Shown: one piece after another, positions 24,519-29,061 of the stretch
How positions within the stretch are numbered: position 1 is the stretch's first letter
How the letters are laid out: each line of letters starts with the position of its first letter
Assembly: GCA_006226965.1 (NCBI GenBank)
Contig: SBGQ01000039.1
Location: 1 to 46,110, forward strand
Reading direction: 5' to 3'
Length of the DNA: 46,110 nt
From: a bacterium
Lineage (GTDB): Bacteria > Bacteroidota > Rhodothermia > Balneolales > M1805
The notes under the pieces: generated by a model
The model's database searches: none
What the model was told of the DNA's origin: nothing
The model's input: the letters and a program-made list of their open reading frames with translations, nothing else
Made by a program: the position numbers and the translations under genes

Positions 24519-26555
24519 CTATTTTCTTTTGAAAATCAAGAAAGATAAATCGTCTTCTATTGTATCTAGTGGAGCGAAAGAATCTAAGTCTTTTAAAATG
24601 GCATCAATAACTTCATCGCTGTTTTTTTTGGAGTGCGAACGAATTACTTCTTGTAAACGATCGTAACCGTATTCTTCCTCTTCGGAATTTTTATGCTCAA
24701 TAATTCCATCAGAAACTAAGACCAATAACGAATCTTTGTGCAATTCAGGTAAATCTATTTCATCGAATTCGGCGCGTTTAATGGCGCCTAATGGTAAGCC
24801 GGGTTGGGTTATTAATTGAGTTGAGTTCGTTTTAGAATCCCACAGAACAATATCCGGCATGGCAGCGGTCGACATTCTAAAGCGGCTGTTTTTCAAATGA
24901 AGTAAGCGCATAGCCATATTCATTCGATTGGGGCGAATTTCATGTATACCTTTATTTAGCTTTTCCATGAGCATATTTAAGGTATCTGTGCTCATAAAAG
25001 TTAGCGCAGTTTTAGAAATGGTTACCATTACGCCAGCAGATAAACCGTGACCGGAAGCATCACCAAAAGCAATTAATAAGCTATTGTCATCTTGTGGAAA
25101 GAAATCATAATAATCACCACCTACTTCAGTAGCAGTTTTCATGTACATCGAAACATCGTAGTCATCAAGAAACGGTGGAATTTTTGGAAGCATAGCCGTT
25201 TGCATGGTTCTGGCTTGCTCTAATTCTTGTGTTTTCCGTTGATTTTCAGTTTCAATAGCTTTTGCCTGGATTTCAGCGGCGTGTGCTTGTAATTCAGCTG
25301 TTTTTGCACGGAATTCAGCTTGTTCTGCTCGCATTGTTTCTTTTAGCTGAGCATTTTTAGCTTTTTCAGCTTCGAACGTAATCAACTTAATTCGATCAGC
25401 TAAGGCAAATGATATTAATATCGCTTCCAAACCACCGGCAACAAAATGTGATTTTATCAAAAATTGGATATAGGGTATTATTTGCAGAGATGTGAGAAAG
25501 TTGATAAAAACGGCTACCAGCAGGAATCCTTTAGACAATAAGAAAAAACGTGCCGGTTTATATCCTTGTTTGAGTTTTAACAGTGATGCTATAAAACTCA
25601 CAATGATAACCACTAAAAGAAGTAAAGTGGCAATAGATGCGAATTTTTGATAAAGCCCAAATAAGGTGAGAATGCTGGAGATGAAATAAAATAGTGCAGC
25701 GCCAAGGAGTGTGTAATGGATTTTTGGAAGCCCATTTTTGGTTTCTAGAAATCGTGCTGTGAAAAAGATACTCCAAGCCGATCCAAAATAAAGGCTAAAT
25801 CGATGGATAGAATTAGTGTAAGCCGTAAACGGTTCCCAAATATATTGTGCGCCTAATCCACTTAAAGCTAAAACCACAATCATATAAAAAAGCTGACTGG
25901 CGAAGAATACGAGGTAATTTGTATCCTTAATAACGCCAAATATTACCACATTATAAAGAATCGAAAATAATAAAACGCCTATCAGTAAGGCGTAATAGGG
26001 CGTATACTTATAATATTCTTTGAATATAGAATTCGGCTTTGCAATTACGAATTCAGGTGCTAAAACGCCTTTTGTGCTCACTAAAACATAAAACGTGTTT
26101 TTCCCCGGATAAATAGTAGCAGGTATGTAAATATCATCAATTTGATATGGGCGATTTGTAATAGAAATTTTAGCGCCGGATTCAGTTTGGGCAATTACAC
26201 TGTCATCTTGATTAACCTGATAAAGGTCAATCGAGTGAGTCATACTGTTGCCTAGAAAAATTGCCCGTTCAATAGGTTTATCGCCAGAGTTCATTAAACT
26301 GATTTTAAACCAATAAGGTGTGCCAGTAAAGCCAAACACAGGGCGTTGATTAGTTATTTTTGTAAATGAGGTGTCGTTCAATTGAAGAACGGAATGGAAA
26401 TCTAATAATCTATCGGTGTCGGCTTTGTAGATGAGAGAGGATGTCAGATTTTGAGTTTCCAAATCAGAATTAAAGGACACAATGTCTCCTGCTTCTGCAT
26501 TAAGAAACCCCCATACTTGTAAAAGTATTACTACTGCCAACAATGTGTATTTCAT
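24519..26555 (-). CDS. 7TMR-DISM sensor with SpoIIE-type PP2C phosphatase domain
   Basis: This is a 678-aa membrane receptor whose output is a serine phosphatase. A signal peptide (about 1-22) is followed by a periplasmic 7TMR-DISMED2-like domain (about 40-175), seven hydrophobic helices (about 185-385), an Ala/Glu-rich coiled coil (about 388-450) and a PP2C/SpoIIE domain. The metal-binding acidic residues are present: EVGGDYYDFF (Asp481, Asp484), FGDASGHG (Asp499), VSDG (Asp616) and DD at 668-669. By analogy with SpoIIE/RsbU it should dephosphorylate a STAS anti-sigma antagonist, and one is encoded in the operon that diverges from it 276 bp away. The periplasmic ligand is unknown. Confidence 0.92.
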   Translation of the reverse strand: MKYTLLAVVILLQVWGFLNAEAGDIVSFNSDLETQNLTSSLIYKADTDRLLDFHSVLQLNDTSFTKITNQRPVFGFTGTPYWFKISLMNSGDKPIERAIFLGNSMTHSIDLYQVNQDDSVIAQTESGAKISITNRPYQIDDIYIPATIYPGKNTFYVLVSTKGVLAPEFVIAKPNSIFKEYYKYTPYYALLIGVLLFSILYNVVIFGVIKDTNYLVFFASQLFYMIVVLALSGLGAQYIWEPFTAYTNSIHRFSLYFGSAWSIFFTARFLETKNGLPKIHYTLLGAALFYFISSILTLFGLYQKFASIATLLLLVVIIVSFIASLLKLKQGYKPARFFLLSKGFLLVAVFINFLTSLQIIPYIQFLIKSHFVAGGLEAILISFALADRIKLITFEAEKAKNAQLKETMRAEQAEFRAKTAELQAHAAEIQAKAIETENQRKTQELEQARTMQTAMLPKIPPFLDDYDVSMYMKTATEVGGDYYDFFPQDDNSLLIAFGDASGHGLSAGVMVTISKTALTFMSTDTLNMLMEKLNKGIHEIRPNRMNMAMRLLHLKNSRFRMSTAAMPDIVLWDSKTNSTQLITQPGLPLGAIKRAEFDEIDLPELHKDSLLVLVSDGIIEHKNSEEEEYGYDRLQEVIRSHSKKNSDEVIDAILKDLDSFAPLDTIEDDLSFLIFKRK

Positions 26556-26831
26556 GAACTAACTATCCCTAAATGAGTTGTTCGATACGTTAATTAATAC
26601 GTATCTAAATCTCCTAAAAGCGTACCATACAATGTTTAGGCAATTTACACGATTCGAAGTGATAATCCACAAATAAAATTTGTTAATTATTGACTTAAGC
26701 AAAGATTGCAGATTCCTAAAAACTTGGATTTCGATGTTTTATTTATGGTTAAAATTCCGCATTATCAAAGAGTATATTGTTGATTCTAAAATCAACAATA
26801 AAGCAGATTTAACAAGGGTTAATTCGATTTT
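26556..26831. promoter_or_regulatory. Divergent regulatory region of the partner-switching module
   Basis: This 276-bp gap must hold the promoters of both the SpoIIE gene (minus) and the kinase-STAS-cyclase operon (plus). Two dyads are visible: a perfect one at 26775-26800, listed separately, and GATACGT...ACGTATC at 26584-26605 with an AT-rich 8-bp centre, 29 bp from the SpoIIE start. No perfect TAnnTTTG box was found; TATATTGT at 26773-26780 is the nearest match on the plus strand. Confidence 0.45.
26775..26800. promoter_or_regulatory. Perfect 11-bp inverted repeat upstream of the kinase gene
   Basis: The arms TATTGTTGATT (26775-26785) and AATCAACAATA (26790-26800) are perfectly complementary and flank CTAA. 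The element ends 31 bp before the ATG of the RsbW-type gene. It could be an operator or a hairpin in the leader; no T run follows, so it is not a terminator. It does not resemble the genome-wide repeat hairpins of this window. Confidence 0.6.
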
Positions 26832-27254
26832 ATGTCGCAAAAAATTAAACTATCCATGACCTTGCCCTGCATTGCAGATATTGAAACGGTTGCACATGCA
26901 GGTCTGGAACGAATTGGGACGGAGGGGAAAATACCTCAAGACAAGTTGGAAGAAGCCAAAATGCTTGTCAATGAGGCAATTATTAATGCAATTGAGCATG
27001 CACAAACCAAGAAAAATCAACTTAAAATTGAATTCGAACTTTCAAAAACGGAACTGTTAATCTTTGTTCGCGATTATGGTGCCGGGTTCGATGTTTCTCT
27101 TGTGGATGACCCCAATATTGATGAGAAAATTACAGGTGATTACAAGCGTGGTTGGGGTATAAAACTCATGCAAACCTTATCCGACGATTTTAAAATTGAG
27201 TCCGGCAAAGGCGGGACCAAAATCTACATGTACTTACACTTAAATCAAGCCTAG
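26832..27254 (+). CDS. Anti-sigma-factor-type serine kinase (RsbW/SpoIIAB-like)
   Basis: This is a 140-aa GHKL ATPase that should phosphorylate a STAS antagonist and bind a target such as a sigma factor. The ATP site is complete: N box EAIINAIEHA (48-57), G1 box DYGAGFD (81-87) and G2 box RGWGIKLM (106-113). It has no other domain and no membrane segment. It is followed 6 bp later by a STAS gene, its expected substrate, and is divergent from the phosphatase gene. No sigma factor is encoded nearby, so the target may be elsewhere, or the regulated partner may be the cyclase in the same operon. Confidence 0.92.
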   Translation: MSQKIKLSMTLPCIADIETVAHAGLERIGTEGKIPQDKLEEAKMLVNEAIINAIEHAQTKKNQLKIEFELSKTELLIFVRDYGAGFDVSLVDDPNIDEKITGDYKRGWGIKLMQTLSDDFKIESGKGGTKIYMYLHLNQA

Positions 27255-27260
27255 CAAAAT

Positions 27261-27599
27261 ATGAGTCAAGATTTCACATTGACCTCTTCAGTAGTAAATA
27301 ATTTTTTGGTTATTGAAACAAACGGATATATCAATATCAATGGTGGAGAAACCATCGCTGAAGAAGCCTACAAATTTATAGACCAGGGAATTACTAAAGT
27401 GGTTCTAAACTTGGAACAATCTCGAGTTGTAAATTCCATCGGTATTTCCATTTTAATTGAAATTATTGAGCGTTTACAGGAAGTTGGCGGGCAATTGTAC
27501 TTTACCAATCTCACCCCAACTATCGAAAAAACATTCACCATTATGGGATTGTTTAAATACGCACAAAAAGCTGCTACCAGCAAAGATATAACAGGTTAA
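27261..27599 (+). CDS. STAS-domain anti-sigma antagonist (RsbV/SpoIIAA-like)
   Basis: This 112-aa single STAS domain should bind the upstream kinase when unphosphorylated. The likely phosphoacceptor is Ser59 in VVNSIGISIL; the usual motif is D-S-[ST]-G, and here it reads N-S-I-G, so the Asp is replaced by Asn. The conserved ITKVVLNLEQSRVVNSIG strand-helix junction and the C-terminal FTIMGL match the family. It lies 6 bp after the kinase gene and 1 bp before the cyclase gene, in a tight operon. Confidence 0.92.
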   Translation: MSQDFTLTSSVVNNFLVIETNGYININGGETIAEEAYKFIDQGITKVVLNLEQSRVVNSIGISILIEIIERLQEVGGQLYFTNLTPTIEKTFTIMGLFKYAQKAATSKDITG

Positions 27600-27600
27600 A

Positions 27601-29061
27601 ATGGACTCAGAGCTTCAACGATTTCAGCTTTTTACCGAGCAAATAAAAGAAATTAACGAGCTTATTAATTCAGAAATCCATTTTTTATCAAAGCTTGAAG
27701 AAGTATTATTCCGAATTGCCGGATTTATTAATGCTTCTTCAGGCTTTTTACATTTAGAATACGGGAATAAGTCGTTTTTATATTCATACGGACTATCCAG
27801 CTCTTCTGAATTGCAGTTTATCTTACGTTATCAGCAGGAATCGGATGTTGCACCCTTGTTTATTTCATTAATCGATTCTGAAATACATGATACATTAGAG
27901 CTGCCAATTAAAGTTCACGATGCTGAACTTGGTACTCTATTTTTTGTGAATAAAGAAACTCGAAAAGGAGTAGGGGATTTTGAGCCGATAGACCACTCAT
28001 TAATCAAAGTTACAACGCAACAGATAGGTATTGCGCTAGAACGTTTAGATCATATTTTGCTTCAAAAAGAACTATTGGAGCTTAATCATTCCATATTGAA
28101 TTCAACCTCAAGTGCCATTGTAGCTACCGATGCGGAATTGAATATTCTCTTGGCAAATGAAAAAGCAGAAGAGTGGTTTAAATCTACGAATTCAGAGCGA
28201 TTAGTAAATTTGTTTGATGGAATACCGGTAAGTAGTCAAGTTCGTCGGTTTATTCATGAAGTTGTTGAAAAACAACAAGCTATGGCAGCTGAAGGGCTTG
28301 TGCTTTCTGCATCAAACCCGAGATTATTAAAGGTGTTTGCAAGCCCGATAAAAACTCGTGTAGATGAGGGTAAAGACTTGACCGGATTTGTGTTTTCGTT
28401 CGATGATATAACCGAATTCAACCGAATGAAAGATACGTTTACACGTTATGTCAGCAAAGATGTACTGGAATATATTACTTCGACAAAAGGCTCAGCCAGA
28501 TTAGGCGGAACAAAACGTAGTTCAGCAATTTTCTTTAGTGATATTCGCGGTTTTACAAGTTATTCAGAGAAAAACTCACCGGAGGAAGTGGTCGAAACGC
28601 TCAATCAATATTTTAATATGATGATTGGGTGCATCTATGAAGAAGGCGGACAAGTTGATAAGTTGGTCGGAGACGAAATTATGGCGGTTTTCTATGAAGA
28701 AAAAGGATTGCCGCACCCTTCCGTTCGAGCTGTTGACGCTGCAAAAATTATGCGTGAACGTTTGGAAATGTTCAATCAATTCAGAGAAGAACAAGGATTA
28801 CAGCCTTTATATTTTGGGGTTGGAATTAATTATGGGGATGTGATTTGCGGAAATATCGGTTCGTTTGATAGAATGGATTACACCGTTATTGGAGATGTTG
28901 TAAATACAGCGGCACGTTTATGTTCATCAGCAGGAAAAGACGAAATTTTAATATCTGAATCGGTTAAACAACACTTGCAAAGTACTGCAGAAATACAAGT
29001 GCTAAAACCGCTATCAGTAAAAGGGAAAGTTGAACCGCTACAAGTGTATAGCGTGATTTAG
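27601..29061 (+). CDS. GAF/PAS-domain class III adenylate cyclase
   Basis: This is a cytoplasmic 486-aa nucleotide cyclase. Residues 25-150 look like a GAF domain and 160-275 like a PAS domain (NSTSSAIVATDAELNILLAN), followed by a linker helix NRMKDTFTRYVSKDVLEYI and the catalytic domain from about 300. Metal-binding Asp314 (FSDIRGFT) and Asp358 (GDEIMAVF), adenine-specifying Lys354 and Asp426 (MDYTVIG), and transition-state Asn435 and Arg439 (GDVVNTAARL) are all present. It is therefore predicted to be active and ATP-specific, making cAMP. It starts one base after the STAS stop, which links second-messenger output to the partner switch. Confidence 0.93.
   Translation: MDSELQRFQLFTEQIKEINELINSEIHFLSKLEEVLFRIAGFINASSGFLHLEYGNKSFLYSYGLSSSSELQFILRYQQESDVAPLFISLIDSEIHDTLELPIKVHDAELGTLFFVNKETRKGVGDFEPIDHSLIKVTTQQIGIALERLDHILLQKELLELNHSILNSTSSAIVATDAELNILLANEKAEEWFKSTNSERLVNLFDGIPVSSQVRRFIHEVVEKQQAMAAEGLVLSASNPRLLKVFASPIKTRVDEGKDLTGFVFSFDDITEFNRMKDTFTRYVSKDVLEYITSTKGSARLGGTKRSSAIFFSDIRGFTSYSEKNSPEEVVETLNQYFNMMIGCIYEEGGQVDKLVGDEIMAVFYEEKGLPHPSVRAVDAAKIMRERLEMFNQFREEQGLQPLYFGVGINYGDVICGNIGSFDRMDYTVIGDVVNTAARLCSSAGKDEILISESVKQHLQSTAEIQVLKPLSVKGKVEPLQVYSVI

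Follow-up and report, generated by a model that had tools for sequence, protein, structure and literature searches.

Partner switches have mostly been studied as regulators of sigma factors, and a few cases with a GGDEF cyclase are known. Among the partner switches with a diguanylate cyclase as output is SiaABCD, in which SiaD, the cyclase, is bound at its helical stalk and activated by the unphosphorylated partner SiaC (PMC8457831). HsbA-HsbD of Pseudomonas aeruginosa and BgrSTUWV-BgrR of Sinorhizobium meliloti, as cited in PMC8457831, also have diguanylate cyclase outputs. There is evidence that the output behind a regulatory segment can be exchanged, and the passages on this point in PMC12143880 name PPM, histidine kinase and GGDEF outputs, not class III cyclases. 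In the present study a gene cluster at positions 24519..29061 of a DNA stretch of 46,110 nucleotides (the window) was analysed. The window is one entire contig (SBGQ01000039.1) of the 3.78-Mb genome, 184 contigs in total, of a bacterium of the Balneolales (Bacteroidota; assembly GCA_006226965.1). The cluster encodes a sensor phosphatase, an RsbW-like kinase, a STAS protein and a class III adenylate cyclase. We consider it likely that these proteins form a partner-switching module with the cyclase, not a sigma factor, as output. The initial annotation of the locus had started from the premise that established partner switches release a sigma factor; this is too narrow, because switches without a sigma factor as output, some of them acting on GGDEF cyclases, are already well known (PMC8457831).

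Results

The arrangement described in the initial annotation, a phosphatase gene divergent from a tight operon of kinase, STAS and cyclase genes, was found with all four open reading frames in place. The membrane phosphatase (7TMR-DISM/SpoIIE) is encoded on the minus strand (24519..26555). A divergent intergenic region of 276 bp (26556..26831) separates it from the plus-strand genes for an RsbW/SpoIIAB-like serine kinase of the GHKL type (26832..27254), a stand-alone STAS protein (27261..27599) and a GAF-helix-PAS-class III adenylate cyclase (27601..29061). The gaps are 6 bp between kinase and STAS gene and 1 bp between STAS and cyclase gene. The catalytic residues of phosphatase, kinase and cyclase could be recognized in the sequence, as had been reported.

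The gene order was compared with genomes of the same order, class and phylum and with named genomes, none of them from the window genome's own family; Ignavibacteria were sampled solely through the phylum draw. The order kinase, STAS, GAF/PAS class III cyclase was detected in 16 other genomes, ten of marine Flavobacteriaceae/Bacteroidetes and six of marine Balneola (g38), the gaps measuring -7 to 25 bp in loci with a complete cyclase. One of these 16 cyclase-type loci (L136) ends at a contig edge and was assigned from its N-terminal segment. The reading as an isolated chance operon was rejected on account of this recurrence. In 15 of the 16 loci the neighbourhood includes a related phosphatase. 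Its gene in the g38 genomes runs convergent to the operon, with a 4-bp overlap at the end of the cyclase gene; the marine Bacteroidetes have it 1.4-4.1 kb upstream on the same strand, with small lipoprotein-like genes between. In three loci (L130, L137, L139) one to three repeated pairs of such genes (about 120 and 315 residues) stand between phosphatase and kinase, and the number of pairs differs between the marine Flavobacteriaceae/Bacteroidetes genomes.

The family STAS profile gave scores of 160-171 bits in eight of 245 class genomes and no more than 52 bits in the remainder. The cyclase gene follows directly behind the STAS gene in seven of the eight, the window genome and the six g38 genomes. 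Thus, the pair is patchy, and the cyclase is usually present where the pair is. Other cyclase homologues recovered from the order, the paralogues of the window genome included, had no kinase or STAS gene within 1.5 kb. The phylum sample yielded the family STAS in 23 of 395 genomes, and the scan of the named genomes gave 22 loci. Conservation of the gene order in relatives, the lack of which was initially named as refuting control of the cyclase, came out in favour of this control, with a limit: the arrangement is kept in the genomes named above, but most genomes of the order are without the kinase-STAS pair and one class genome (G009) has the STAS gene without the cyclase behind it.

Furthermore, a second output was identified behind related pairs. 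In 24 loci of Ignavibacteria, Calditrichota and other Bacteroidota, kinase and STAS genes are followed by the gene of a tandem-GAF SpoIIE phosphatase of about 535 residues; a Reg_prop/Y_Y_Y-SpoIIE protein usually adjoins these clusters. All annotated kinase-STAS pairs of the two main types precede one of two enzymes, the cyclase or the GAF-SpoIIE phosphatase. Among the open reading frames of all fetched loci, the N-terminal segments of both output types were reciprocal best profile matches over a colinear stretch. The profile of the phosphatase outputs detected the cyclase outputs at 1e-7, and the cyclase-output profile detected the phosphatase outputs at 1e-12. In the second GAF, the motif KESR-x-G-x3-F-x3-D was recognized. 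Behind a conserved GAF segment, a cyclase domain and a SpoIIE phosphatase domain are thus exchanged as output.

In the window this segment was located with a profile of relatives only and covers approximately residues 17-147 of the cyclase (27649..28041, plus strand). Searched against the whole 3.8-Mb genome, the profile of the second GAF without the window sequence gave a single match (E≤10), to residues 17-147 of the cyclase, with an E value of 6.9e-8. With a profile of the phosphatase outputs only, this was again the single place found, weakly (E 0.01). The best E value of 500 shuffles of the segment was 0.034, compared with 3.1e-10 for the real one. The explanation that the shared signal reflects GAF domains in general was rejected, because the profile matches no other place in the genome and the shuffles scored far lower. 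The GAF segment is proposed as a docking or receiver site.

Two further arrangements were seen in the comparison. An Ignavibacteria locus (L126:9497-13469) contains kinase, STAS and GAF-SpoIIE genes; behind them come another kinase-STAS pair and an extracytoplasmic function (ECF)-type sigma factor. This locus may represent a two-step cascade. In L223 and L225 (family f22), more distant STAS relatives, which have no family kinase next to them, come immediately after a response regulator-SpoIIE protein.

The catalytic domain of the window cyclase (Pfam Guanylate_cyc, residues 308-478; 28522..29034, plus strand) was recognized with an E value of 1.7e-24; PAS_9 was sub-threshold. The GAF domain is under the Pfam cut-off (E 0.17); it is visible in the fold model and was detected by the family profile. 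Solved structures of CyaB (3r5g, E 1.4e-29) and likewise Cya2 (about 1e-29) were matched. The metal residues D314/D358, the purine pair K354/T428 and the transition-state residues N435/R439 are invariant in 14 relatives, and the K/T purine pair, of the adenylate type, is the same as in the adenylate cyclase CyaB in the alignment. The predicted product is cyclic AMP (cAMP). In the fold model of the cyclase, a helix of about 39 residues leads from the GAF to the PAS domain, with the catalytic domain behind; that of the sister output comprises two GAF-like domains, long helices and PPM. Both models (predicted local distance difference test, pLDDT, 69 and 74) are of moderate confidence and were used for the domain layout alone. 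The long helix joining GAF to PAS (residues 129-167; 27985..28101, plus strand), modelled with moderate to low confidence, is a candidate signalling coiled coil.

The kinase was matched by HATPase_c_2 of Pfam (6e-19) and by the RsbW structure 6m36 (E 3.9e-8), and is also SpoIIAB-like; its scores are far under the NCBIfam equivalog cut-offs. N-box (E48/N52), G1 (D81-G83-G85) and G2 (G107/G109) motifs are present. For the STAS protein, matches to Pfam STAS (PF01740, 1e-14) and to the SpoIIAA structure (2e-8) were obtained. Ser59 (codon 27435-27437) is aligned with Ser58 of SpoIIAA, the preceding residue being Asn instead of Asp. The motif N58-S59-I60-G61 (NSIG) is invariant across 12 family members, and Ser59 is the likely phosphorylation site.

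The phosphatase is composed of 7TMR-DISMED2 (residues 43-171, Pfam 4.5e-19), 7TMR-DISM_7TM (residues 187-388, 7e-31), a helical linker and SpoIIE/PPM (residues 489-677, 3e-31) with the PPM motifs GGDYYD, GDASGHG, SDG and EDD. A solved structure, 6k4e, deposited only as putative serine phosphatase, was matched with an E value of 6.5e-7, and the NCBIfam matches include the SiaA model. The PPM domain nests among the sensor phosphatases of related modules, nearest to type B (38% identity). By the approximately unbiased (AU) test, a clade of window phosphatase and output GAF-SpoIIE proteins was rejected (p 1.5e-44), and its grouping with the sensor phosphatases of type B (B_prop) was not (p 0.334). 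An AU test of the window phosphatase with all annotated prop-type phosphatases gave a p of 1.7e-65 but was set aside, since some truncated copies inside this group bore the label 'other'. Two paralogues from the window genome are also inside the wider sensor-phosphatase clade; hence, the clade backs the link to the module without proving it. The sensor domain of the window phosphatase is 7TMR-DISM, that of the related modules Reg_prop/Y_Y_Y. A SpoIIE phosphatase of one clade goes with the module even though its sensor domain, its place and its orientation differ between the loci.

Kinase and STAS of the window share a mean identity of 47% and 53%, respectively, with the phosphatase-output type, compared with 35% and 43% for the other cyclase type. 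The kinase-STAS tree groups the window with the phosphatase-output type; a single cyclase clade was not rejected (AU p 0.224). In the catalytic-domain tree, window and type B cyclases as one clade were likewise not rejected (AU p 0.227). The association with the cyclase may result from a single swap or from two separate recruitments, both compatible with the AU tests.

The whole window genome was searched family by family. It contains eight class III cyclases, seven SpoIIE domains, four STAS matches, three strong HATPase_c_2 kinases and 19 cyclic nucleotide monophosphate (cNMP)-binding domains. Consensus promoter matches in the 276-bp intergenic region were not above those in shuffles, and terminator and promoter scans around the operon gave nothing above chance. 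A second partner-switch cluster with the order STAS, kinase, SpoIIE (L106; C172, 7468-9989) has its own phosphatase and belongs to a different family. Two lone STAS proteins (L108 on C44, L110 on C118) have housekeeping surroundings: as named by eye, one is beside a DNA ligase-like gene and the other between secretion-like and adenylosuccinate synthase-like genes.

Discussion

Direct control of the cyclase by the switch is probable, since in related clusters the same sensor-like segment is found in front of a phosphatase instead. The earlier suggestion that the kinase-STAS pair may control the cyclase gains support from the gene order in 16 other genomes and from the GAF segment common to the sister phosphatase output. 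By analogy with the control of SiaD by SiaABC, control of the cyclase by the switch is the most likely function of the module. The kinase would phosphorylate Ser59 of the STAS protein, and upon stimulation of the 7TMR-DISM sensor the membrane phosphatase would remove this phosphate. The kinase-STAS pair would act on the cyclase via the GAF segment and the long helix ahead of the PAS and catalytic domains. A stimulus at the sensor would thus activate the phosphatase, the dephosphorylated STAS protein would dock and the cyclase would be switched on. Docking of the unphosphorylated STAS protein, with activation of the cyclase as its effect, was chosen by analogy with SiaC-SiaD, and we favour this wiring slightly.

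Several observations weigh against control of the cyclase by the switch. The GAF segment of the window is divergent, and the match of the phosphatase-output profile to it is only weak. G009, which has the closest STAS protein in the class, has neither a cyclase nor a GAF-SpoIIE gene directly downstream; amidohydrolase genes follow, and the contig of this locus (C163, L121) begins inside the kinase gene. At one cyclase-type locus (L144) no phosphatase was tagged nearby. Moreover, a conserved neighbourhood is a functional link and does not tell which of the proteins touch.

The opposite polarity would result if the free kinase docked on the GAF segment or the helix and switched the cyclase on, similar to RsbT with RsbU, and the dephosphorylated STAS protein held the kinase and so turned the cyclase off. 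The sister family, with a PPM phosphatase as output beside a STAS-kinase pair, resembles RsbS-RsbT-RsbU. A precedent for kinase docking is the control of a GGDEF cyclase by RsbT in Moorella, as cited in PMC12143880 and PMC4976288. However, Pfam gave no match to RsbU_N for the window cyclase or for the scanned sister outputs, and there was no RsbR-like sensor STAS among the four STAS matches of the genome, which are in frames of 114-122 residues. The resemblance of the kinase to RsbW and SpoIIAB is a further point against docking of the kinase. We regard this wiring as possible but rather unlikely. Wirings other than docking of STAS protein or kinase take the remaining probability.

A conventional switch acting on a distant sigma factor, for example FliA, or on another target would leave the cyclase merely co-operonic and the responses co-expressed. 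Kinase and STAS protein are RsbW- and SpoIIAA-like, partner-switch genes can lie apart from their sigma factor, and a FliA-type sigma factor is present in the genome. But, in agreement with the initial annotation, no sigma factor was found in the window, nor was one detected near any cyclase-type locus. The region-3 sigma factors of the whole genome comprise only two tandem RpoD-like proteins and one FliA, whose gene adjoins an FlhG-like gene; none of them is near the module, and there is no SigB-type sigma factor among these three matches. A distant sigma factor also leaves the conservation of the GAF segment across two different output enzymes unexplained, and we consider this explanation improbable. 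Feedback by cAMP on operon expression or on one of the two enzymes, kinase or phosphatase, with the switch acting elsewhere, is very improbable: effectors of cAMP are plentiful with the 19 cNMP-binding domains of the genome, but Pfam detected no such domain in the four proteins, and the sister module has as output a phosphatase, which produces no cAMP, so that cAMP feedback cannot be the shared logic.

With the cyclase as target, the kinase-STAS pair and the conserved GAF receiver would form a portable control unit that evolution has combined once with a PPM phosphatase and once with an enzyme unrelated to it, the class III cyclase, and in the latter a serine phosphorylation switch would directly set the cAMP output. 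We hold this broader interpretation to be fairly probable. If true, no earlier partner switch would have had an effector of this cyclase class; no such output was found in the open-access literature searched, subscription papers being mostly outside the search. Use of one pair and GAF segment for either output enzyme would link serine-phosphorylation switching to cAMP, and the module family would offer a natural domain-swap experiment on the communication between switch and output. The proposal of an exchangeable toolkit (PMC12143880) would be extended to class III cyclases.

Comparison with known systems

CyaB and CyaC share the class III catalytic domain with the window cyclase, and the K/T purine pair is aligned with that of CyaB. 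To our knowledge, neither of them is part of a kinase-STAS operon. The kinase, STAS and PPM phosphatase families are those of RsbUVW and SpoIIE-SpoIIAA-SpoIIAB; the output of these systems is a sigma factor, whereas none is encoded near the window module. In the stressosome branch RsbRST-RsbU and the Moorella MtG system (PMC12143880, PMC4976288), the output of the kinase-STAS pair is likewise a PPM phosphatase or a cyclase. In contrast to the window system, in which neither was found, these depend on RsbR as sensor proteins and on an RsbU_N domain. In HsbA-HsbD and BgrSTUWV-BgrR, as cited in PMC8457831, a true STAS protein controls a cyclase by its phosphorylation state, but the outputs are GGDEF proteins. 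Compared with SiaABCD of Pseudomonas aeruginosa (PMC8457831), the window module differs in the cyclase, which is of class III with a GAF-helix-PAS receiver instead of the GGDEF diguanylate cyclase SiaD, and in the partner, a PF01740 STAS protein instead of the DUF1987 protein SiaC. In both systems the genes of sensor phosphatase, kinase, STAS-like protein and nucleotide cyclase, which is also the order of the Sia genes, are clustered.

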